Assembly: GCA_003216975.1 (NCBI GenBank) | Contig: QCHY01000002.1 | Location: 1 to 64,000, forward strand | Length of the DNA: 64,000 nucleotides | Source: Prochlorococcus sp. AG-402-I20 | GTDB lineage: Bacteria > Cyanobacteriota > Cyanobacteriia > PCC-6307 > Cyanobiaceae | Direction of reading: 5' to 3' | In this document: one piece after another, positions 12,770-24,282 of the stretch | How positions within the stretch are numbered: position 1 is the first letter of the stretch | Layout: every line of letters begins with the position of its first letter | Made by a program: the position numbers and the translations under genes | The notes under the pieces: generated by a model | What the model saw: only the letters and a program-made list of their open reading frames with translations | Database searches by the model: none | Told to the model about the DNA's origin: nothing

Positions 12770-13243
12770 TTAAACTTTCTTGAGCTTTTTAAGAAGCTCT
12801 AGAGCGATATTTTTTTTAATTGGCATGATTGATAGTCTGTTACCTTTACGAACTAGAGTTAGTTCTTCAGGCGTATACGTTTCACATAACTCCTTTAAAG
12901 TAATCATATTTTGAAATTCACAGATATATTTTGTCTTTACACAATCCCAACGAGGGTTATCTTCCTTTGATTTTTTGTCAAAATATTTTGAACTTTTATC
13001 AAACTGAAAAGGGTCGATTAAGTTAGTCTCAATAATTTCCATCAGACCAACTATTCCAGGGGGCTTAGTATTTGAATGATAAAAAAAAGCTTTATCACCA
13101 ATTTCCATTGACCTCATAAAGTTTCTAGCTTGATAATTTCGAATTCCATCCCAGAGAGTTTCTTCTTCCTTTTGTAAATCTTTAATACTGTAAGCATCTG
13201 GCTCGCTTTTCATTAGCCAATAGTTGATTTCTTTTGATGCCAT
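12770..13243 (-). CDS. EVE-domain protein
   Basis: A 157-residue single-domain protein of the PUA-like EVE family. Key segments are INYWLMKSEPDAYSIKDLQK at the start, LWDGIRNYQARNFMRSMEIG in the middle, and AFFYHSNTKPPGIVGLMEI. EVE domains bind modified bases in DNA or RNA in characterised relatives; the target here is unknown. The 5' end of this gene and 109 bp of upstream DNA were duplicated to 15501-15660, where only a 16-codon relic remains. Confidence 0.88.
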   Translation of the reverse strand: MASKEINYWLMKSEPDAYSIKDLQKEEETLWDGIRNYQARNFMRSMEIGDKAFFYHSNTKPPGIVGLMEIIETNLIDPFQFDKSSKYFDKKSKEDNPRWDCVKTKYICEFQNMITLKELCETYTPEELTLVRKGNRLSIMPIKKNIALELLKKLKKV

Positions 13244-13352
13244 GGGATCTCAGCGATATTGCAATGTGTGGATGGTGTGTGGATGGCTTAACATTCTCAC
13301 CCCTATTTCTTTATTCTATTTCAATCAGGTTTCTATTACTAATAACTAACAG
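13193..13352. repeat. Duplicated segment A, copy 1 (EVE 5' end plus upstream)
   Basis: Aligns without net gaps to 15501-15660 at a constant offset of 2308 bp. It includes the first 17 codons of the EVE gene, a perfect tandem 11-mer TGTGTGGATGG at 13265-13275 and 13276-13286, and ends in TAATAACTAACAG. The noncoding half is almost identical between copies. The sequence from here to 13457 contains no convincing gene. Confidence 0.85.
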
Positions 13353-13414
13353 AAAGCAAGTTTCAGAAAAAATGATGATTGCTAATAAGAACCCCCTGTT
13401 GAGAAAACTAGTGC

Positions 13415-13515
13415 GCAAACAGATTTGAGTTTTTAGTATTTTCTATCTATATGATTTTCAAAACCAATCTAGACAACACTCATTGATGGAGTGATGTCTG
13501 GACGGTATGTGTTTA
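13415..13515. repeat. Duplicated segment C, copy 1
   Basis: Imperfectly repeated at 16016-16115 (shared GCAAACAGATTTGA-like start, TTCAAAACC-like middle, AATGGAGTGA and GTACGTGTTT-like end). It is more diverged than segments A and B, so it is either older or under no constraint. It overlaps the 3' part of a doubtful 61-codon frame. Confidence 0.6.
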
Positions 13516-13643
13516 TTTAATGTGTATGAAGCTTTTTTATATCTATTCCTTAGAGCTGTATAAATAGTACTTCCTAATTCTTCTAGCTGATCTAGTGAAA
13601 AAATAATTCTTTTACCATTTCTTGTATGGCAAAAATTTTCCAC
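13458..13643 (-). CDS. Doubtful 61-codon frame overlapping the cynS 3' end
   Basis: The frame starts at ATG 13643, overlaps the last 32 bp of cynS in another frame, and encodes [15 protein letters not shown] followed by a helical stretch with [20 protein letters not shown]. It resembles no family I recognise. The last third is built from duplicated segment C. It could be a short real gene expressed from the cynS transcript, or a chance frame; I lean to chance. Confidence 0.25.
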
Positions 13644-14055
13644 ACATTGATACTTTTACTCTGTCACCTTTTGGGTCTTCAACCTTATCGACGTTAATTG
13701 TAAAATCAATGGCACTCATGATTCCATCACCAAACTTTTCTTGAATAACGTCTTTCATGGGCATTCCATATACTTGCATGATTTCATAAAATCGATATAT
13801 CAAAGGATCAGTTGGGATGACTGGATCTAGTGATCCTTTCACTGGAGGCGTTGTTAATAATTCTTTTAGTCCTAAATCAAGTCCTAACTTAGTCAATAAT
13901 TTCTCAGCTTCTTCCTCACTTGCAGTTGCTTGACCATAAAAAAGACTTGCAACCCAGACTTCATCAAGTCCCAATAGATTTCCAATTTCCGAAAAGGTTA
14001 AACCTTTTTCTTTTTTTGCTTTTAATAGTAATGGAGTAGCTTCAAAAATTGACAT
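13612..14055 (-). CDS. cynS: Cyanase (cyanate hydratase)
   Basis: Decomposes cyanate with bicarbonate to ammonium and CO2, letting the cell use cyanate as a nitrogen source. At 147 residues it has the usual two-part architecture: an N-terminal helical DNA-binding-like domain ([20 protein letters not shown]) and the catalytic C-terminal domain with the triad R88, E91 ([11 protein letters not shown]) and S114 ([11 protein letters not shown]). All three are intact. No cyanate transporter genes (cynABD) are adjacent. A perfect GTAN8TAC box lies about 130 bp upstream of the start, consistent with NtcA nitrogen control. Confidence 0.95.
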
Positions 14056-14186
14056 AGAGATAAATCTAAGAATGAAAGATAGCCATCTCTCTAAAAGAAA
14101 AGATTCTTTGAGATAAGCAATTAATTAATAAGTCTTAGTCTTAATTCTTTCAGTCATATCAATTACATTATCTAATAATTGATTGT

Positions 14187-14200
14187 GTATATAATCTTAC
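14187..14200 (-). promoter_or_regulatory. Perfect NtcA-type box upstream of cynS
   Basis: On the cynS strand the sequence reads GTAAGATTATATAC, an exact GTA-N8-TAC. NtcA activates nitrogen-assimilation genes from such boxes, commonly centred near -41. A TAGATAAT/TAATGT stretch lies just downstream but the spacing is shorter than the usual 22-23 bases, so the exact promoter is unclear. The position, between the small gene at 14284-14439 and cynS, suits a cynS promoter. Confidence 0.55.
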
Positions 14201-14283
14201 AATGAGTTTTTTATTTTCATGCAATAAAATTAAAAGTAAATAGAAATTATAAGTATTTGATTCGAATTAATTACTTGTTATTT

Positions 14284-14439
14284 TTACAATAAATCATATT
14301 TTGAATCCTCTTTGATCTCGTTCCAAAGGTCTTTTATTGATTGGTTAAATCCATTTGAAGTAAGAAACTTTCTTGCTTGAGCAACTCTTTCTTGAATGAT
14401 TTTTTCTTGTGGAGTCATTTCATTAGCTGAATCAATCAT
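14284..14439 (-). CDS. Small helical protein, 51 residues, unknown
   Basis: ATG at 14439 opens a frame encoding MIDSANEMTPQEKIIQERVA, QARKFLTSNGFNQSI and KDLWNEIKEDSKYDLL. The composition is charged and helical with no membrane segment. It resembles the many short conserved proteins of Prochlorococcus but I cannot name a family. It lies upstream of cynS on the same strand but is separated from it by the NtcA-type box, so it is probably transcribed independently. Confidence 0.5.
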   Translation of the reverse strand: MIDSANEMTPQEKIIQERVAQARKFLTSNGFNQSIKDLWNEIKEDSKYDLL

Positions 14440-14493
14440 GTGTTTGGAGCATATAGATTAATCTTGAATTTTCTTAAAGTATTTGAGAAGTGA

Positions 14494-14510
14494 TAGTCGC
14501 TACAATATAA
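14494..14510 (+). promoter_or_regulatory. TAGTCGCT-N4-TATAA promoter-like motif, copy 1
   Basis: TAGTCGCT, four bases, TATAA. The same motif with identical spacing occurs at 31324-31340. Both lie roughly 150-160 bp before a start codon on the same strand (14661 and 31499). TATAA would be the -10 element; no good -35 is visible. The first copy of the 62-residue gene is the likely target here. Confidence 0.35.
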
Positions 14511-14566
14511 GTTCTACTAATAACTAACAGATCGCAACTGACAGAATATCTCAAAATTAAAGCTTA

Positions 14567-14672
14567 GAAAAACTGATCTTCCACATATTCTTTTGGAAAA
14601 GCTCGCTCTGAACGTCATTATCTGATTGTTGGCTCATCATCTATAAAACAGCCAAGAACTATGACTTCTAAA
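14567..14672 (+). repeat. Duplicated segment B leader, copy 1 (106 nt identical to 15700-15805)
   Basis: Covers 94 nt upstream of the ATG at 14661 and the first four codons. Every base is identical to 15700-15805. The frame of the downstream gene stays open through it back to a TGA at 14573-14575, with no ATG, GTG or TTG codon. See the findings for why this is odd. Confidence 0.85.
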
Positions 14673-14849
14673 TCCTCTCGGAGTGTTCTTTCAATGAGGG
14701 AATACAAAGCAGTTCTTGCAGAAGCTTCTTGTATTGAGAAGCCTTATTCAGAGACAGGTCACTTATATCAAGAGAATAGACTTCTTCCTAGACCTGTATG
14801 GTTTAAAGGAAGTAGGGATAGAGGTTTGAGAGGAAATCTAGCAGCATAA
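14661..14849 (+). CDS. 62-residue unknown protein, paralogue 1
   Basis: Begins MTSKSSRSVLSMREYKAVLA, then EASCIEKPYSETGHLYQENR, LLPRPVWFKGSRDRGL and a short tail ending in NLAA. It is basic, soluble, with a conserved central block (PYSETGHLYQE, LLPRPVWFKG). A second copy at 15794-15982 differs at about a dozen residues, and the retained reading frame plus mostly conservative or silent differences argue that both are translated. I do not recognise the family. No Shine-Dalgarno sequence is apparent before the ATG. Confidence 0.65.
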   Translation: MTSKSSRSVLSMREYKAVLAEASCIEKPYSETGHLYQENRLLPRPVWFKGSRDRGLRGNLAA

Positions 14850-14982
14850 AACTAGTTTTTTAGATCCTAAATACCTAAAAAATGTCAACCAAAGATCCTC
14901 TTAAAAGAAAGGAATTAGTGTCATATACAAACAAGGAAATTAACTAGTTGCCATAATGTACTCATACAATAATTACTAATTC

Positions 14983-15195
14983 ATGGGTGATAAGTGCCAA
15001 GCAACTTGGAAGCCAACTGAGGAGCAAGTGGATAAAATAATTCTTCCAGCTATGCAGGGAATAGCTCAACAATGCGCTTCCCATATTAATGAGCTTCAAT
15101 GCCCTCCAGAGTTTATAGCTTTAATGCTTAGAGATATTGCCGATGCATTCGAAAACCCATCATCCGAAGGTGAAAGTGATTGTGAGTGCTGTTGA
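14983..15195 (+). CDS. 70-residue unknown protein with Cys-rich tail
   Basis: Encodes MGDKCQATWKPTEEQVDKII, followed by a helix-rich middle containing QQCASHINELQCPPEFIALM and a C-terminus ending SDCECC. Six cysteines in 70 residues suggest metal binding or disulfide/thiol chemistry. It lies between the two duplicated 62-residue genes, just upstream of the riboswitch-like leader. No family recognised; existence as a gene is likely from its codon pattern and ATG start. Confidence 0.6.
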   Translation: MGDKCQATWKPTEEQVDKIILPAMQGIAQQCASHINELQCPPEFIALMLRDIADAFENPSSEGESDCECC

Positions 15196-15218
15196 TGCAT
15201 CGTCCCAATCCCCTGCTC

Positions 15219-15247
15219 TTGACATTCTTAGGTATAAATACTATAAA
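15219..15247 (+). promoter_or_regulatory. Consensus sigma-70 promoter for leader/micropeptide unit 1
   Basis: TTGACA (15219-15224), 17-bp spacer, TATAAA (15242-15247). The flanking sequence ATTCTTAGGTATAAATACTA is shared with the second unit near 24051-24072, so promoter and leader were duplicated together. Confidence 0.65.
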
Positions 15248-15253
15248 TAAAGA

Positions 15254-15349
15254 GTAGCCATGGCTACCTAATCGTCCGATCTGCTACTTGTAGACCGCAG
15301 TTCGACTCAAGCCATAGGACGGGGACTTGAGCGTTTGAAGGGAGACTGC
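15254..15349 (+). ncRNA. Structured leader resembling the 'downstream-peptide' glutamine riboswitch, copy 1
   Basis: The leader has a 5' palindromic hairpin (GTAGCCATGGCTAC, 15254-15267), then a domain closed by GCAGT (15297-15301) with ACTGC (15345-15349). An inner stem pairs CTCAAG (15306-15311) with CTTGAG (15326-15331). The single-stranded blocks AGTTCGACTC, GGACGGGGAC and GAAGGGAG occupy the positions of GUUC, GGACGG and GAAGG in glutamine aptamers (glnA and downstream-peptide motifs). It ends six bases before the ATG of a 33-codon gene, the arrangement that gave the class its name. A second copy at 24080-24177 keeps the stems, in part with compensating changes. Assigned from memory of the motif, not by a model search. 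Confidence 0.6.
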
Positions 15350-15355
15350 ATCATC

Positions 15356-15457
15356 ATGGTAAATATGTTTTTTAATGGAAAAGCTTTTGTTTATTGCACT
15401 CATGTAGAAAAGGCATCAATAACTCTTACTTATAGAGGTTTGAAATATTTAAGATAA
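15356..15457 (+). CDS. 33-residue DUF4278-like micropeptide 1
   Basis: The product is MVNMFFNGKAFVYC plus a linker THVEKA and the C-terminal block SITLTYRGLKYLR. The TYRG core is the hallmark of DUF4278, a short cyanobacterial domain also found in the PII-interacting regulator PirA of Synechocystis. The paralogue at 24181-24282 has exactly the same length and matches at MVNM-FNG, VYC and TYRGL-Y-R. It is immediately downstream of the riboswitch-like leader, so its synthesis is probably tied to glutamine level. The link to PII signalling is inference from family membership. Confidence 0.72.
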   Translation: MVNMFFNGKAFVYCTHVEKASITLTYRGLKYLR

Positions 15458-15500
15458 TCAGTTGGCTAGATTAATTAAATAGCTTCCTATTTTTAATCCT

Positions 15501-15551
15501 TTAATCTGGCTCATGCTTCATTAGCCAGTAGTTAATCTCTTTTGGTGCCAT
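15501..15551 (-). pseudogene. Relic of the EVE-domain gene (first 16 codons)
   Basis: Reading leftward from ATG 15551: MAPKEINYWLMKHEPD then TAA. The intact gene at 12770-13243 begins MASKEINYWLMKSEPD. Two substitutions and an in-frame stop at codon 17, after which similarity ends. It is part of duplicated segment A. Confidence 0.85.
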
Positions 15552-15660
15552 GGTTTCTTAGCGATATTGCAGTGTGTGGATGGTGTGTGGATGGCTTAAC
15601 ATTCTCACCCCTATTTCTTTATTCTATTTTAATCAGGTTTCTATTACTAATAACTAACAG
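15501..15660. repeat. Duplicated segment A, copy 2
   Basis: Counterpart of 13193-13352 at a constant offset of 2308 bp, with the same tandem 11-mer (15573-15583, 15584-15594). It runs straight into segment B copy 2 through the shared TAATAACTAACAG. The 336 bp between the micropeptide gene and the second 62-residue gene hold only this segment and the B leader. Confidence 0.85.
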
Positions 15661-15699
15661 ATCGCAACTGACAGTAAATCTCAAAATCTAAGCATCGAA

Positions 15700-15805
15700 G
15701 AAAAACTGATCTTCCACATATTCTTTTGGAAAAGCTCGCTCTGAACGTCATTATCTGATTGTTGGCTCATCATCTATAAAACAGCCAAGAACTATGACTT
15801 CTAAA
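15700..15805 (+). repeat. Duplicated segment B leader, copy 2
   Basis: Identical over 106 nt to 14567-14672; the ATG of the downstream gene is at 15794. Further upstream (15651-15699) similarity continues but with mismatches and small indels. Confidence 0.85.
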
Positions 15806-15982
15806 CCTTCTCGAAGTGTTCTTTCAATGGAAGAATATAAGGCAGTTCTTGCAGAAGCTTCAACCCTTAAGAAGCCCTATTCAGAGACAGGTCACTTATA
15901 CCAAGAGAGTAGACTTCTTCCCAGACCTGTATGGTTTAAGGGGAGTCGAAATAGAGGGTTAAGAGAAGATATCGCAGCATAA
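15794..15982 (+). CDS. 62-residue unknown protein, paralogue 2
   Basis: Begins MTSKPSRSVLSMEEYKAVLA, then EASTLKKPYSETGHLYQESR, LLPRPVWFKGSRNRGL and a tail ending in DIAA. It has the same length as paralogue 1 with no indels. Differences are concentrated at the SMREY/SMEEY site, the CIEK/TLKK patch and the tail, while the PYSETGHLYQ and LLPRPVWFKG blocks are unchanged. Family unknown. Confidence 0.65.
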   Translation: MTSKPSRSVLSMEEYKAVLAEASTLKKPYSETGHLYQESRLLPRPVWFKGSRNRGLREDIAA

Positions 15983-16015
15983 AACTAAGATTGTTGTATT
16001 CATAGATCTGTTGAG

Positions 16016-16271: not shown

Positions 16272-17018
16272 CTAATGATTATCAAGTTGATTTAGGAATT
16301 TTCTACTTCTCTCATGCCTAGCATTAGAAAAGAAAATACTTGGAGGAGATGTTTCTATGACTTTACCTGAATCCATGAATAAAACTTGATCGCTTACGTC
16401 TTTAGCAAAACCTATTTCATGTGTTACGACAACCATTGTCATTCCTTGCTCAGCAAGTCTTCTCATCGCATCGAGTACTTCGTTGATTCTCTCTGGGTCT
16501 AGAGCGCTAGTGGGCTCATCGAATAAAAGTAATTCAGGTTTTAAGGCTAAGGCTCTAGCTATGGCTACTCGTTGCTGTTCTCCTCCACTAAGTTGACTTG
16601 GGTATTTCTTTGCATGTGAATCTATTCCCATTTGACTCAAGAGAAACATGCCATATTCTTCCGCTTCAATTTGACGACGTTTTTGCACATGAACTGGAGC
16701 GAGGGTGATATTTTCAAGGATTGATAGATGAGGGAATAAATTGAATTGTTGAAATACCATCCCTACTCTTCTTCTTATTTTTTGGATTTTCCGTTCATCA
16801 GGAGTAGAATTAACTTTTATTCCTAAAATACTTAGTTCTCCTCTATCAAAAGTTTCAAGACCATTAAAAGTCCGAATTAGAGTACTTTTCCCTGATCCTG
16901 AGGGCCCCATGACTACTAGGACTTTCCCTTGATTAACTGTTAGGGAAACATTATCAAGAGCTCGTAATCCTTTTGTGTATGACTTAGTGAGATTCTTTGC
17001 AATAACAATAGGTTCCAT
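16272..17018 (-). CDS. aapP: Amino-acid ABC transporter ATPase (AapP/GlnQ type)
   Basis: ATP-binding subunit, 248 residues, of a polar-amino-acid importer. Walker A GPSGSGKST (about residues 38-46), Q-loop VFQQFNLFPHLS, signature LSGGEQQRVAIARAL, Walker B LLLFDEPTSALDPE and the switch histidine VVTHEIGFA are all intact. It is the last gene of a four-gene operon with short gaps (6 bp to the permease upstream). Confidence 0.93.
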   Translation of the reverse strand: MEPIVIAKNLTKSYTKGLRALDNVSLTVNQGKVLVVMGPSGSGKSTLIRTFNGLETFDRGELSILGIKVNSTPDERKIQKIRRRVGMVFQQFNLFPHLSILENITLAPVHVQKRRQIEAEEYGMFLLSQMGIDSHAKKYPSQLSGGEQQRVAIARALALKPELLLFDEPTSALDPERINEVLDAMRRLAEQGMTMVVVTHEIGFAKDVSDQVLFMDSGKVIETSPPSIFFSNARHERSRKFLNQLDNH

Positions 17019-17024
17019 GAATTA

Positions 17025-18059
17025 TCAGAAATTAGCTTGATTAATGGTCATTTTTTGTTCAAGATTTCTTGCTAGAACAGCCATTATTGTACAAACCATC
17101 CAATAGACGCTTGCTAGCCAAACATAAACTTCAATATATTGACCAATGAATTCTGGATTAGCCAGGATACTTCTGCCTATACCTAGTAACTCCACTAATC
17201 CTAAAATAGCCATCAAAGATGTATTTTGAAAAAGGCCAATAGATTGATTAGTGAGAGCAGGTAAGGCAATACGAATAGCTTGAGGAATTAATATGAATTG
17301 AATGATTTGGTATTGATTAAGGCCAAGACTATTTGCGGCCTCTATTTGAGTGTTCGGGATTGACTGTAGTCCGCCACGAATATCTTCCGCAATATAGGCA
17401 GAGACAAATAGAGAAAAAGCAAAGATAGCTCTCCAAACACGATCAATTTCAATTCCAACTGGAAGAAATAAAGGTATTAGTAGTTGACCAAAGAAAAGTA
17501 CTGCAATAAGAGGAATTGATCTCATGACATCTATATAGATTGAGCTTAGTTTCTCAACGAATGGTAATGAACTCTGTCGACATAGAGCCAACACTATTCC
17601 AAAAGGTAATGATAAGAATGAACTACAAATAGTTAATAGTATAGTTAGAGTTAAGCCACCCAAATGTCTACTCATTATGGGTGATAAGCCAATTCCACCA
17701 TAAAGTAAATATAGACCTATGGGTATTGTACCTACCCATACTTTTAGTAGATTTTTACGTAGCCATTTCCACTCAGGGCCGCAAAGAGTCAAGATACTAA
17801 GTAAAAGAAGACTAATAATCCAAGTAGCAGGTCTCCATTGTTCATTAGGTGGAAAACTACCAAATGCATATAAAGGAAGATTCGTTGTTACTACTTTCCA
17901 ATCAGCCTTAAATATGAGCCATTCAAAAGTATTAAAACAAGCTTTACTAATAAATAAAATAATGAGTAAACTAATAATAGTATTGAATAAATTTGAAAAT
18001 AAAGTTTTCTTTAAGTTTTTCAAGGAAAATATTATTGAACTTATATTAATTTTGAACAT
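17025..18059 (-). CDS. aapM: Amino-acid ABC transporter permease (AapM type)
   Basis: A 344-residue integral membrane protein, HisM/GlnP family. After an N-terminal extension with extra membrane segments it contains the ABC-permease core, with the EAA-like loop ANSLGLNQYQIIQFILIPQA that contacts the ATPase. The long N-terminal extension is typical of AapM/BztC rather than of the simpler GlnP. It is 4 bp from aapQ upstream and 6 bp from aapP downstream. Confidence 0.9.
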   Translation of the reverse strand: MFKINISSIIFSLKNLKKTLFSNLFNTIISLLIILFISKACFNTFEWLIFKADWKVVTTNLPLYAFGSFPPNEQWRPATWIISLLLLSILTLCGPEWKWLRKNLLKVWVGTIPIGLYLLYGGIGLSPIMSRHLGGLTLTILLTICSSFLSLPFGIVLALCRQSSLPFVEKLSSIYIDVMRSIPLIAVLFFGQLLIPLFLPVGIEIDRVWRAIFAFSLFVSAYIAEDIRGGLQSIPNTQIEAANSLGLNQYQIIQFILIPQAIRIALPALTNQSIGLFQNTSLMAILGLVELLGIGRSILANPEFIGQYIEVYVWLASVYWMVCTIMAVLARNLEQKMTINQANF

Positions 18060-18063
18060 GAAT

Positions 18064-18975
18064 TTATGTATGTTTTTGTGAGTTTAAAATCAATCTATTA
18101 ATGATTTCCATTGTATTAGTTATCAATAGATTTAATAGCAAAAAACTAAAAAGTAATATAATAAAACACTCGATAGCTCTACCTGTCTGATTTATAATAG
18201 TATCATTAATTGCGTAAATATCTGAATATCCAACTGCTATTGCCAAGGTACTATTTTTAGCAAGGTTAAGATATTGACTTGTTAACCCTGGAATAATCGC
18301 TGGTAATGCCTGTGGAAGTATTATACGGATAAGTCCTTTTCTTTCAGAAAGTCCTAAGCTCCTAAATGCTTCCCATTGCCCTCGGGAAACAGAGATAATG
18401 CCTCCTCGGATTACCTCTGCTATATAAGCACTCGTGAATATACTAAGGCCAAGTGATAATGCTAGAAACTCCGAGGAAAAAAATAATCCTGAAAAATCTA
18501 TTCCTTGATTTGTAATGTTAAATATATTTTTTATATGGATAAACATATTGTCTTTTAAACCTAAGAACCCAACAAAATACCAAAACATAAGTTGAAGTAA
18601 AAGAGGAGTTTGTCTGATTATGGTTATATAAGCAGCCGAAATTAGACCTAGTAATGAGTTTTTACCGGTTCTTGCAAAAGCTATTATTGTTCCCAAAAAA
18701 GTAGCTAATATTAACGATGACACAATAACTTTAAGACTGTTGAGCCAACCTATAAATAATGCCCAAGCATAACTATCTGAGGAGGTATAAGGTAAGGGGT
18801 GTTCCGCTAAAGCAAAACTTGCAGGCTTGAAAAGCCAGCTAAAATTAAAACCAAGACCTGTTCTTATTAGATTTACTGTTAAATTATTAATTAGGATCCC
18901 AATCAAACAAAATAATATAATACATATTCCAAATTGCAAAAATATTTTTTGATTTATTTTCATTCCCGTAATCAA
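18064..18975 (-). CDS. aapQ: Amino-acid ABC transporter permease (AapQ type)
   Basis: Second membrane subunit, 303 residues. A hydrophobic start (residues about 8-32), a large periplasmic loop, then the permease domain beginning SLKVIVSSLILATFLGTII and the coupling loop EAFRSLGLSERKGLIRIILP. AapQ and AapM form the heteromeric channel of the general L-amino-acid permease family (Nat N-II/Bgt systems in cyanobacteria). Uptake of amino acids is a known trait of Prochlorococcus. Confidence 0.9.
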   Translation of the reverse strand: MITGMKINQKIFLQFGICIILFCLIGILINNLTVNLIRTGLGFNFSWLFKPASFALAEHPLPYTSSDSYAWALFIGWLNSLKVIVSSLILATFLGTIIAFARTGKNSLLGLISAAYITIIRQTPLLLQLMFWYFVGFLGLKDNMFIHIKNIFNITNQGIDFSGLFFSSEFLALSLGLSIFTSAYIAEVIRGGIISVSRGQWEAFRSLGLSERKGLIRIILPQALPAIIPGLTSQYLNLAKNSTLAIAVGYSDIYAINDTIINQTGRAIECFIILLFSFLLLNLLITNTMEIINRLILNSQKHT

Positions 18976-18981
18976 TTATTT

Positions 18982-20028
18982 TTAGTTAAATGGTGGTGAA
19001 ATATGTACACCTCCTTTGTTATACAATTCATTTTGTCCTCTTGGAATAGGGACCTCGCTATTTGGTCCTAAATGTCTATCGTAAATCTCTCCATAATTGC
19101 CAGTTGAGCTAATTACTTTAACTACGAAGTCATTGCTAAGACCAATTTTTTCTCCTAGTCCTCCATCAATACCTAAAAATCTTCTTAAAGGTTTTAATTG
19201 AGGATTATCCTTTGCAATTAGCACTTTTTCATCAATATTTGACTTTGTTATCCCTTGCTCTTCGGCAGATATAAGAGAAAAGACAACCCATCTCATGGCA
19301 TCAGCTAGTTTCTGATCTTGGCCATCGGAGGCTGGAGCAAGTGGCTCCTTGCTCAATACATCATCAAGAATAATATGTTCTTTTGGATTCTTAAAACCAG
19401 ATCTGGCTGCCGCTAATTGTGAACGATCAGAAGTCATGGCTGAACAACGACCCTGTAAATAGCCAGCAACTACTTGATTAAGATCTTGATATTTGATTGG
19501 TGTATAAGGCAGTGCGGCACTCTCAAACGCATCATTTATATTTTGTTCAGTAGTTGTACCTGAGCCTACACATATAGATTTATTTGCAAGATCTTTAAGA
19601 CTACTAATTTTACTTTCTTTCTTTACCATCAATCCCTGACCGTCATGGAAAATAACTGGTGCAAAAGTTAATCCATTTCCTCCTGAGGAATCTCTACTGA
19701 GAGTGAAAGTGGTATTTCTTGATAAGAGGTCAATTTCCCCTGTTTTAATAGCAGTGAATCTCTCTGCTGCAGTTAGAGGTCTATATTGAATTTTTTCTGA
19801 ATCTCCTACAATTGCAGCAGCAAATGCTTTACATATATCGACATCTAGTCCTTGATAACTACCATCACTTTTCAAAAAACTAAATCCAGGAATCTTTCCA
19901 CTTACTCCACAAATCAACTCATTGCGATTTTTTATTAGGTTAAGTCTAGAACTATTATCTTGATTTGTTGTCGCACAGCCAGCCAAGAGAGCTGCTAGGC
20001 CAACTATTCCTGTTACCAATCGACGCAT
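18982..20028 (-). CDS. aapJ: Amino-acid ABC transporter substrate-binding lipoprotein (AapJ type)
   Basis: Periplasmic binding protein of 348 residues. The N-terminus MRRLVTGIVGLAALLAGCAT has a lipobox (LAGC), so it is probably a lipoprotein with the modified Cys near residue 18. The mature part has the SBP_bac_3 pattern: LICGVSGKIPGFSF, GLDVDICKAFAAAI, LTAAERFTAIKTGEIDLLSR and CVGSGTTTEQNI. It is the first gene of the aapJQMP operon, so the operon promoter lies in the 20029-20380 gap. Confidence 0.93.
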   Translation of the reverse strand: MRRLVTGIVGLAALLAGCATTNQDNSSRLNLIKNRNELICGVSGKIPGFSFLKSDGSYQGLDVDICKAFAAAIVGDSEKIQYRPLTAAERFTAIKTGEIDLLSRNTTFTLSRDSSGGNGLTFAPVIFHDGQGLMVKKESKISSLKDLANKSICVGSGTTTEQNINDAFESAALPYTPIKYQDLNQVVAGYLQGRCSAMTSDRSQLAAARSGFKNPKEHIILDDVLSKEPLAPASDGQDQKLADAMRWVVFSLISAEEQGITKSNIDEKVLIAKDNPQLKPLRRFLGIDGGLGEKIGLSNDFVVKVISSTGNYGEIYDRHLGPNSEVPIPRGQNELYNKGGVHISPPFN

Positions 20029-22067: not shown

Positions 22068-23993
22068 GTGTTAATTAGTCTTGTTAATGCTTCTACAGAC
22101 TTTGGTATAAAAAATCTTTTTAAAAATTTAGATCTTCATATAAATAAAAAAGAGAGACTTGGTTTAATTGGGCCAAATGGATCTGGAAAGTCAACACTTT
22201 TAAGAGTCATTGCAGGAATAGAACCTTTGATGGAAGGAGAAAGGAGATGTTTATCATCTTTGCGGATATCTTTAGTTGGGCAAGAAACAAGTTACAACAG
22301 TGAAAAAAGTATTTTGGAAGAAGTTCTTGAAGGATGTGGAGAAAAAAGAAAATTATTACTTAATTTCAGTCAGCTAAGTAGAAAAATCGCTCAAAACCCA
22401 GAAGATGAAGACCTGTTGAAAAAACTTGGTCAGGCTAGTGAACTTATGGATGCCGCTGGGGCATGGAATTTAGAACAACAATGCCAAGATGTACTAAGAA
22501 GACTAGGTATAAAAGATTTAGATAAGCCAGTAAAAGATCTTTCTGGTGGTTACCGCAAAAGAGTGGGACTTGCCGCTGCACTTGTTTCTAAACCAGATGT
22601 TTTACTTCTTGATGAACCTACCAATCACCTCGATGCATCTGCAGTGGAGTGGCTTCAAAATTGGTTAGACCATTTTGAGGGCGCGCTTGTTTTGATAACT
22701 CATGATAGATATGTTCTGGATCGCATTACTACTCGGATGGTCGAAATCAATAATGGAGAAGCTCGCAAGTATTCAGGAAATTATCGCCAATTTCTTCAAC
22801 AAAAAGTTGAACAAGAACAATCAGAGGCATCTACAAAGAAAAAATTTCAGGGTGTTTTAAGAAAGGAATTAGCTTGGTTAAGACAAGGTCCCAAAGCAAG
22901 AAGTACAAAACAAAAAGCACGTATTCAAAGGATTGCTGAAATGCAAGCGAAACCTAAAAATTATGTCAAAGCTAAATTAGAAATGAATTCTTTGAGTAGA
23001 AGAATTGGAAAAATCGCAATTGAAGCTGAAGGTGTAGGACTCTCTTTAAATGATATCGAGAATAATTTGGATCTTTTACATGATTTCACGTATAGCTTTA
23101 GTCCGGAGGATCGAGTAGGTATTATTGGTCCAAATGGAAGTGGTAAATCAACTCTTTTAGATCTAATTGCAGGTAAAAGATTGCCTACTAGTGGAAAAAT
23201 AAAACTTGGAGAAACCGTTCATATTGGCTATCTCGATCAACATACAAATGATGTAAATCAAGGGAGTGGCCTAAAGCGCAAAGTTATCGAATTTGTGGAG
23301 GAAGCTGCATTACGAATTGATCATGGTGGAAAACAAATAACTGCATCACAACTCTTAGAAAAATTCCTTTTTCCTCCCAGTCAGCAACATAGTCCTCTAC
23401 TTAAACTTTCAGGAGGGGAAAAAAGAAGACTTGCTCTCTGTAAAATGCTCATACAATCTCCCAATGTATTGTTGCTTGATGAGCCTACAAATGATTTAGA
23501 TATACAAACACTAAGCGTGCTAGAGGATTTTCTTGAGGACTTCAAAGGTTGTGTCGTAGTCGTATCGCATGACAGATATTTTCTTGATCGAACTATTGAT
23601 CGAATTTTTAATTTTGAGAATGGTCACTTAAGAAGATATGAAGGTAATTACTCTCGATTTCTGGAACAAAAAATATTAGAGGAGCGAAATAAAGAAACCA
23701 AAGATCGAGCTCAGATGGTTGATAAATCACATAACAAGGTTGGATCAGAAATAAAGTCAAACCCTCAACAAACTTTGAGAAAATTGAGTTTTAAAGAAGC
23801 TAGAGAATTAAAAGAACTAGATCTTAAACTACCTATGTTAGAAAAACAGAAAATATATTTAGAAAAAAAAATAACTGATAGTGATGTAGACATTAGAGAA
23901 ATCAGTCATCAGTTAGCAGAGCTTATTGAAGCTATTCAAGAGCATGAGGATCGATGGATTGAGCTAAGTGAGTTGTCTGAGCAAGCCAAATAA
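22068..23993 (+). CDS. ABC-F family ATPase (Uup/YheS-like)
   Basis: A 641-residue soluble tandem ATPase with no membrane segments. Two Walker A motifs (GPNGSGKST, near residues 37 and 353) and two signature/Walker B sets (LSGGYRKRVGLAAAL with LLLDEPTNHLD, and LSGGEKRRLALCKML with LLLDEPTNDLD) are intact. The linker between domains is charged (RQGPKARSTKQKARIQR), and the C-terminal 90 residues form a predicted coiled coil as in Uup. ABC-F proteins act on ribosomes (translation factors) or in replication-linked DNA processes. Starts at GTG 22068. Confidence 0.92.
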   Translation: MLISLVNASTDFGIKNLFKNLDLHINKKERLGLIGPNGSGKSTLLRVIAGIEPLMEGERRCLSSLRISLVGQETSYNSEKSILEEVLEGCGEKRKLLLNFSQLSRKIAQNPEDEDLLKKLGQASELMDAAGAWNLEQQCQDVLRRLGIKDLDKPVKDLSGGYRKRVGLAAALVSKPDVLLLDEPTNHLDASAVEWLQNWLDHFEGALVLITHDRYVLDRITTRMVEINNGEARKYSGNYRQFLQQKVEQEQSEASTKKKFQGVLRKELAWLRQGPKARSTKQKARIQRIAEMQAKPKNYVKAKLEMNSLSRRIGKIAIEAEGVGLSLNDIENNLDLLHDFTYSFSPEDRVGIIGPNGSGKSTLLDLIAGKRLPTSGKIKLGETVHIGYLDQHTNDVNQGSGLKRKVIEFVEEAALRIDHGGKQITASQLLEKFLFPPSQQHSPLLKLSGGEKRRLALCKMLIQSPNVLLLDEPTNDLDIQTLSVLEDFLEDFKGCVVVVSHDRYFLDRTIDRIFNFENGHLRRYEGNYSRFLEQKILEERNKETKDRAQMVDKSHNKVGSEIKSNPQQTLRKLSFKEARELKELDLKLPMLEKQKIYLEKKITDSDVDIREISHQLAELIEAIQEHEDRWIELSELSEQAK

Positions 23994-24047: not shown

Positions 24048-24177
24048 TTGATATTCTTGAATATAAATACTAAAAAAGGGATGTAGCTTTTGCTACTCAA
24101 TCATCTGATCTTCATATGTAGACAGCAGTTCGACTCAAGCCACAGGACGGGGACTTGAACACTTTTGATGGGTCTGT
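24048..24177 (+). ncRNA. Promoter and structured leader resembling the glutamine riboswitch, copy 2
   Basis: A TTGATA at 24048 and the TATAAATACTAA region match the first unit's promoter. The leader (from about 24080) has a 5' hairpin GTAGC-TTTT-GCTAC, the outer pairing ACAG (24122-24125) with CTGT (24174-24177), and the inner stem TCAAG/CTTGA. The blocks CAGTTCGACTCAAGCCA and AGGACGGGGACTTGA are shared base for base with copy 1, but the 5' hairpin differs in loop sequence while keeping its stem. The ATG of the micropeptide gene follows at 24181. Confidence 0.6.
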
Positions 24178-24180
24178 ATC

Positions 24181-24282
24181 ATGGTCAATATGTATTTCAA
24201 TGGAAGATTATACGTTTATTGTAATTCAGCTTCAAAGCCTAGGATAAAGATCACTTATAGGGGATTGAACTATTCAAGATAA
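24181..24282 (+). CDS. 33-residue DUF4278-like micropeptide 2
   Basis: MVNMYFNGRLYVYC, linker NSASKP, then RIKITYRGLNYSR. It has the same length and layout as the product at 15356-15457, with about half the residues identical and the TYRGL motif conserved. Synonymous and conservative differences between the pair support translation. It is probably controlled by the leader immediately upstream. Confidence 0.72.
   Translation: MVNMYFNGRLYVYCNSASKPRIKITYRGLNYSR

Follow-up and report, generated by a model that had tools for sequence, protein, structure and literature searches.

Two copies of yfr6 in one Prochlorococcus genome: a resident unit with a probably decaying switch and an intact, recently arrived unit travelling with cynS

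Introduction

Why does a single Prochlorococcus genome carry two similar units of promoter, leader and 33-codon gene, and have the two come to serve different ends? The units lie 9 kb apart, U1 at 15219-15457 and U2 at 24048-24282, in a stretch of 64,000 nucleotides of Prochlorococcus sp. AG-402-I20 (hereafter the window). A preliminary description, made from the letters, had taken them for paralogous members of a dispersed family of regulatory units, linked to nitrogen and perhaps diverged for different partners.

Yfr6 has been described as an RNA of 244 nt in MED4 and 239 nt in SS120, with a 33-aa frame from nt 97 and a start mapped to a G downstream of a TATA element (PMC1242208); the same work reports that the yfr6 homologues of both strains were transcribed on Northern blots and that the RNA level drops upon nitrogen depletion. 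The yfr6 5' UTR was recognised by Weinberg et al. as an instance of the Downstream-peptide motif (PMC2864571), now called the Glutamine-II riboswitch. Type-2 glutamine riboswitches activate expression, glutamine turning them ON, and are always multi-copy in picocyanobacteria (PMC6316151).

Results

U1 and U2 are two copies of yfr6

Searching with U1 DNA matched window positions 24053-24282 at 73% identity (E 7.5e-29), far above chance, and both leaders exceeded the gathering cut-off of the Rfam covariance model RF01704 for the Glutamine-II riboswitch (33 bits; U1 57.9 bits, U2 34.8 bits), so that the repeat of leader and micropeptide is real. The principal features are as follows.

15242..15248, plus strand: U1 -10 element TATAAAT (sequence, yfr6-leader alignment)
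15254..15267, plus strand: U1 NtcA-type operator GTAGCCATGGCTAC, GTA-N8-TAC (sequence, leader comparison)
15270..15331, plus strand: U1 Glutamine-II aptamer (57.9 bits)
15356..15457, plus strand: U1 33-codon Yfr6 gene, MVNMFFNGKAFVYCTHVEKASITLTYRGLKYLR (profile match)
24071..24077, plus strand: U2 -10 position, ACTATAAA in most orthologues and ACTAAAAAA here (14-orthologue alignment)
24083..24096, plus strand: U2 NtcA-type operator GTAGCTTTTGCTAC, GTA-N8-TAC, the 5' hairpin of the preliminary description (motif kept in yfr6 leaders)
24099..24159, plus strand: U2 Glutamine-II aptamer (RF01704), damaged (34.8 bits, leave-one-out comparison)
24167..24172, plus strand: U2 ribosome site GATGGG (AAGGAG or GAGGAG in most orthologues)
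24181..24282, plus strand: U2 33-codon Yfr6 gene, MVNMYFNGRLYVYCNSASKPRIKITYRGLNYSR (profile match 4.4e-20)

The peptides were each of 33 codons, with 19/33 residues shared and 14 changed (42%), and both retained MVNM, FNG, VYC and TYRGL, much as had been described. The spacing, which had been called the same, was near-equal and not exact, since, counted from the GTA that opens the 5' palindrome, the ATG comes after 102 nt in U1 and after 98 nt in U2. Judged against the published description of the MED4/SS120 RNA, frame and leader, these operator-to-ATG distances compare with 96 nt from the published start. Like the MED4 and SS120 Yfr6 (PMC1242208, PMC2518516), U1 and U2 are short units in which a TATA element is followed by a riboswitch leader and a 33-aa frame about 97 nt in, and HL yfr6 orthologues aligned across the entire unit. 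U1 and U2 are thus two copies of yfr6, a kind and family already known; unlike the published cases, one copy here lies on a transferred cynS cassette and the other has a damaged leader, in the same genome.

Matches to the Yfr6 profile, which was built from 14 rows, one of them the window's own U2 peptide, spanned all 33 positions. For 11 intact U2-type genes the mean pN/pS, as uncorrected proportions, was 0.24; the U1 group gave 0.21 and the HL group 0.19, and by this comparison of sequences the Yfr6 frame is a real gene under clear coding constraint.

The Yfr6 peptides share the LTYRGxxY motif with DUF4278 (PF14105), a family that includes the N-terminal part of IF17 and whose proteins sit behind other glutamine-II leaders in this genome. 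Membership of Yfr6 in DUF4278 was rejected, as 0/14 peptides passed the Pfam gathering score (one weak match, E 0.051), and only about 10 columns aligned when the two profiles were compared. At two loci (L213, L230) a different 33-aa gene follows a glutamine-II leader; it reads MSLTYRGLKYNQ(Q/H)K..VQLTYRGKSYQ and has two TYRG motifs, at a spacing resembling that from FNG to TYRG in Yfr6. Yfr6 may, on its sequence, be a worn two-repeat DUF4278. A viral origin was also considered and set aside, no Yfr6 relative being found in IMG/VR by profile or in a phage collection by tblastn.

Glutamine-II leaders are dispersed through the genus

The two leaders resemble known RF01704 members in having a pseudoknot aptamer, GCAG and ACGGGGAC blocks, a very short downstream gene and several copies per genome. 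A whole-genome search found more copies than these two, as a dispersed family would predict: this genome gave six RF01704 matches, down to E 2.1e-6, five of them above the cut-off, and glutamine-II leaders were present in 41/41 Prochlorococcus-genus genomes, at 2-8 apiece. Three other leaders here precede small proteins with the LTYRGxxY motif, two of which pass the DUF4278 cut-off while one falls short.

The sixth leader (L006 1501-1556; G000:C28:2860-2915) scored 32.7 bits, just below the cut-off, with GTATAAACCGCTAC upstream; directly 3' of it lies a basic 92-aa ORF, present in 19/41 genus genomes, for which Pfam gave no convincing match. In eight genus genomes (L216, L217, L222-L227) a glutamine-II leader with an NtcA-type box precedes a protein of 100-104 aa that has one probable membrane segment, is not DUF4278 and had no match in NCBIfam.

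The 5' palindrome as an NtcA-type operator

GTA-N8-TAC is the NtcA consensus. This motif was found in 50/51 distinct yfr6 leaders, always with 8 nt between the half-sites, and sat 5 or 6 nt 5' of the pseudoknot strand, the gap to the aptamer varying by 1 nt. It was also present in 25/27 correctly located non-yfr6 glutamine-II leaders, compared with 7/1955 control windows of 40 nt; the raw script count was 25/30, from which L099, L115 and L116 were set aside as they look mis-centred, with the aptamer start invisible where scanned. The same box stands in the same place before different genes in several other glutamine-II locus classes, and is absent from two leader classes, those of the 46-aa and 56-aa DUF4278-like genes. 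The distance to the ATG is about 98 nt from the beginning of the box in HL orthologues and 96 nt from the published start, so that the box overlaps the start site, a position expected for repression. An NtcA motif has been noted at the type-2 riboswitch target gene PMM1846 (PMC6316151), and the extracts of PMC1242208 and PMC2518516 name no NtcA-type box in yfr6.

That the palindrome is instead a structural RNA hairpin is unlikely, though it is the best of the alternatives that we weighed. The palindrome falls within the expected transcript and its stem pairs in almost every sequence (pair 4-11 in 27/28, pair 5-10 in 22/28). A hairpin, however, would not account for a 14-bp length fixed in 50/51 yfr6 leaders while the inner bases are free, for several members (L063, L011) in which inner pairs are broken with GTA and TAC retained, or for the same GTA-N8-TAC opening other glutamine-II leader classes. 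An NtcA-type operator that spans the expected start of transcription, with NtcA as its predicted binder, is therefore the better reading of the palindrome, and the nitrogen link of the preliminary description appears borne out in that both units combine a glutamine-II riboswitch with this putative operator. On the minus strand, at 24083-24096 and 15253-15268, the palindrome and the A-rich -10 region read as a terminator-like hairpin followed by a T-rich tract.

The U2 leader is damaged

U1 retains an intact five-pair pseudoknot, in which 15273-15277 (CGTCC) pairs with 15317-15321 (GGACG). The following changes were seen in the U2 aptamer.

24103: G>A, pseudoknot position 2
24106: C>T, pseudoknot position 5
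24112: G>T, P1
24124: C>A, linking strand position 17
24159: G>A, outer pair of P2

With these changes the U2 pseudoknot sets CAUCU against GGACG, with an A-C mismatch at the ligand-pocket pair and a U-G wobble on top, U faces U in P1, and C stands against A in the outer pair of P2. When the window's U2 was compared with 12 orthologues by leaving each out in turn, it altered 4/44 aptamer sites that are invariant in the orthologues, the maximum, the others altering 0-3; position 24124 was not counted, as G007 varies there too. The base at position 2 is invariant across the rest of the aligned family and is part of the G18>G2:C39 triple in the ligand pocket (PMC6698751), so that U2, unlike the known RF01704 members (PMC2864571, PMC6698751), lacks the G2:C39 pair. 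The preliminary description had the 5' hairpin loop and outer stem differing between the units but remaining paired; the loop does differ, but the hairpin stem is identical in U1 and U2, and the U2 aptamer helices are partly mismatched.

Outside the aptamer, the U2 -10 element is probably damaged, although an upstream TATAAATA at 24062-24069 could stand in for it, and the ribosome site also departs from that of most orthologues. Sequence places U2 among the descendants of RF01704, but its riboswitch function is doubtful. Its frame showed no sign of relaxed selection (pN/pS 0.245, against 0.237 in intact orthologues), which suggests that the decay is either recent or regulatory only. RNA folding gave no clear state with a hidden ribosome site common to U1, U2 and HL; a CUGC just 3' of the ribosome site offers GCAG a pairing partner in HL leaders, and U2-type leaders have not retained it.

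U1 lies on a recently spread cassette with cynS

13200..15556, no strand: recently spread cassette (identity to G001, G021 and G026)
13612-14055, minus strand: cynS, inside the cassette
14661-14849: 62-aa ORF, inside the cassette with cynS and U1

The cassette, of 2.4-2.7 kb, was 98-99.5% identical to those of three other genomes (G001, G021, G026) while the flanks were 82-90% identical, which indicates that it spread recently. The 234-bp U1 unit was 100% identical in G000, G001, G021 and G026, and the U2 genes of G000 and G001 differ at 47% of synonymous sites. A genome from a different genus, G099, holds a U1 with 97% identity. Judged by these identities, U1 is a recent arrival by transfer, travelling with cynS (cyanate use).

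The cassette is bordered by direct repeats, one pairing 13196-13370 with 15504-15678 (175 nt, 89%) and a second pairing 14566-14854 with 15699-15987 (289 nt, 90%); the latter includes the duplicated 62-aa ORF (14661-14849 and 15794-15982). Between the two yfr6 units, at 16272-20028, lies an amino-acid-type ABC transporter operon (SBP_bac_3 binding protein, two permeases and an ATPase), which is present in G004, G008, G017 and G026 and was not seen in the fetched stretches of G001 and G002. At one further locus (L154, G018:C46) a U1-type yfr6 adjoins the same transporter and has its frame split about 19 residues in; U1 may decay too.

U2 is the resident copy and its locus is often broken

22068..23993, plus strand: ABC-F ATPase gene, constant upstream neighbour of the U2 locus (Pfam, synteny)

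In every fetched genome carrying it, the U2-type unit was directly 3' of the same ABC-F gene, and on this synteny U2 is the resident core copy of yfr6. We inspected the 3' flank of the ABC-F gene in 30 genomes and called its state by eye. An intact frame with a largely conserved aptamer was seen in 11/30 (G001, 2, 3, 4, 6, 7, 8, 13, 19, 28, 30) and an intact frame with a damaged leader in 1/30, the window. The start codon was lost in G016 and a premature stop was present in G023; ten of the 30 held a pseudogene or relic (G005, 12, 17, 20, 26, 31, 32, 36, 37, 39), and no trace of U2 was found behind the ABC-F gene in 6/30 (G009, 14, 15, 21, 27, 38). We considered whether U1 had replaced U2 and did not adopt this, loss being common also where no U1 was detected, so that no association is shown. 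Of five U1-bearing genomes in which the U2 locus was read, one had it intact (G001, which holds both units with intact frames), one had it damaged (the window), two had a relic and one had none.

In the tree of yfr6 sequences HL, U2 and U1 (with G099) formed separate groups, the HL and U2 rows each lying on one side of a branch, so that the divergence of U1 from U2 is older than their meeting in this genome. HL genomes often hold two yfr6 copies 9-21 kb apart, and as all HL copies group together, these pairs arose independently.

These data bear on the earlier suggestion that U1 and U2 are two functional paralogues diverged toward different partners. Purifying constraint acts on both frames, which are intact, their 14/33 residue differences are mostly central, and the HL genomes are also paired, 9-21 kb apart, with copies in separate tree subgroups. 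We nevertheless hold it to be quite improbable, as U2 in this genome carries damage in its -10 box, in the base that contacts the ligand, in both P1 and P2 and in its ribosome site, most of the genus has a disrupted U2 locus or none, and the U1-U2 difference is that of old lineages united by transfer and not of divergence within a genome. The claim is thus unsupported, and we prefer two old lineages, U1 brought by a recent cassette and U2 resident with leader damage.

Discussion

We consider it likely that U1 and U2 are nitrogen-controlled copies of yfr6, of which U2 is the resident with a decaying switch and U1 an intact recent arrival with cynS. What this adds to the known yfr6 is the start-site operator, a resident locus that has decayed repeatedly and a mobile cassette that joins cynS to yfr6.

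It has been proposed for MED4 that Yfr6 and Yfr14 form an antisense toxin-antitoxin pair (PMC2518516). That Yfr6 is half of such a pair, or a dual-function RNA, with any nitrogen role of the peptide secondary, fits the antisense RNA reported in MED4 and conservation across the whole transcript, but we think it very unlikely given that the frame has a defined riboswitch as its leader, that the coding constraint is clear and that the locus is frequently lost, unlike an addictive pair. There is slimmer chance still that G2>A and C17>A retuned the U2 riboswitch and gave it a different ligand or threshold, for although these changes lie within or beside the ligand pocket and leave the core blocks GCAGTTCGACTCAAGCC and GGACGGGGAC untouched, the combination is unique to this genome among 13 loci compared, the changes are uncompensated (A-C and U-U mismatches) and damage to the -10 and ribosome site accompanies them.

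Returning to yfr6 copies under nitrogen control, the start-site operator yields a simple two-lock model. For an intact copy such as U1, we infer that under nitrogen limitation NtcA with 2-oxoglutarate would occupy GTA-N8-TAC over the start and block transcription, and that under nitrogen excess NtcA would depart and leave the promoter free. Glutamine would then bind the leader, stabilise the pseudoknot and expose the ribosome site; freeing of the ribosome site by pseudoknot closure has been proposed for this riboswitch class (PMC6698751). The net outcome would be that the Yfr6 peptide is produced solely when glutamine is plentiful. In U2, by the changes listed above, glutamine gating would be lost, and this copy is probably weakly expressed and heading for loss. 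A damaged U2 beside an intact U1 in one genome offers a natural pair with which to test what the switch requires.

If the GS-inactivating factor IF17 and PirA are a guide, the Yfr6 peptide might bind an enzyme or signal protein and thereby restrain ammonium assimilation, and the comparison suggests a role as a brake. The gifA/gifB and pirA genes of Synechocystis resemble the yfr6 model in encoding small nitrogen-excess proteins and being repressed by NtcA, and gifB also carries a glutamine riboswitch, albeit of type 1, unlike the type 2 of yfr6. Their full-length proteins differ from Yfr6, and they are reported absent from marine picocyanobacteria (PMC8092223, PMC6316151).

It is conceivable, if doubtful for now, that Yfr6 is the missing brake on nitrogen assimilation in marine picocyanobacteria, gated twice, by NtcA at transcription and by glutamine at translation, dispensable, exchanged among lineages on nitrogen-scavenging cassettes like the one with cynS, and repeatedly decaying where it is resident. 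Glutamine-II leaders with tiny genes are leading candidates for the control of glutamine synthetase in the most abundant photosynthetic organism (PMC6316151). The frequent loss of yfr6 together with its horizontal gain suggests that the peptide tunes growth rather than sustains it.
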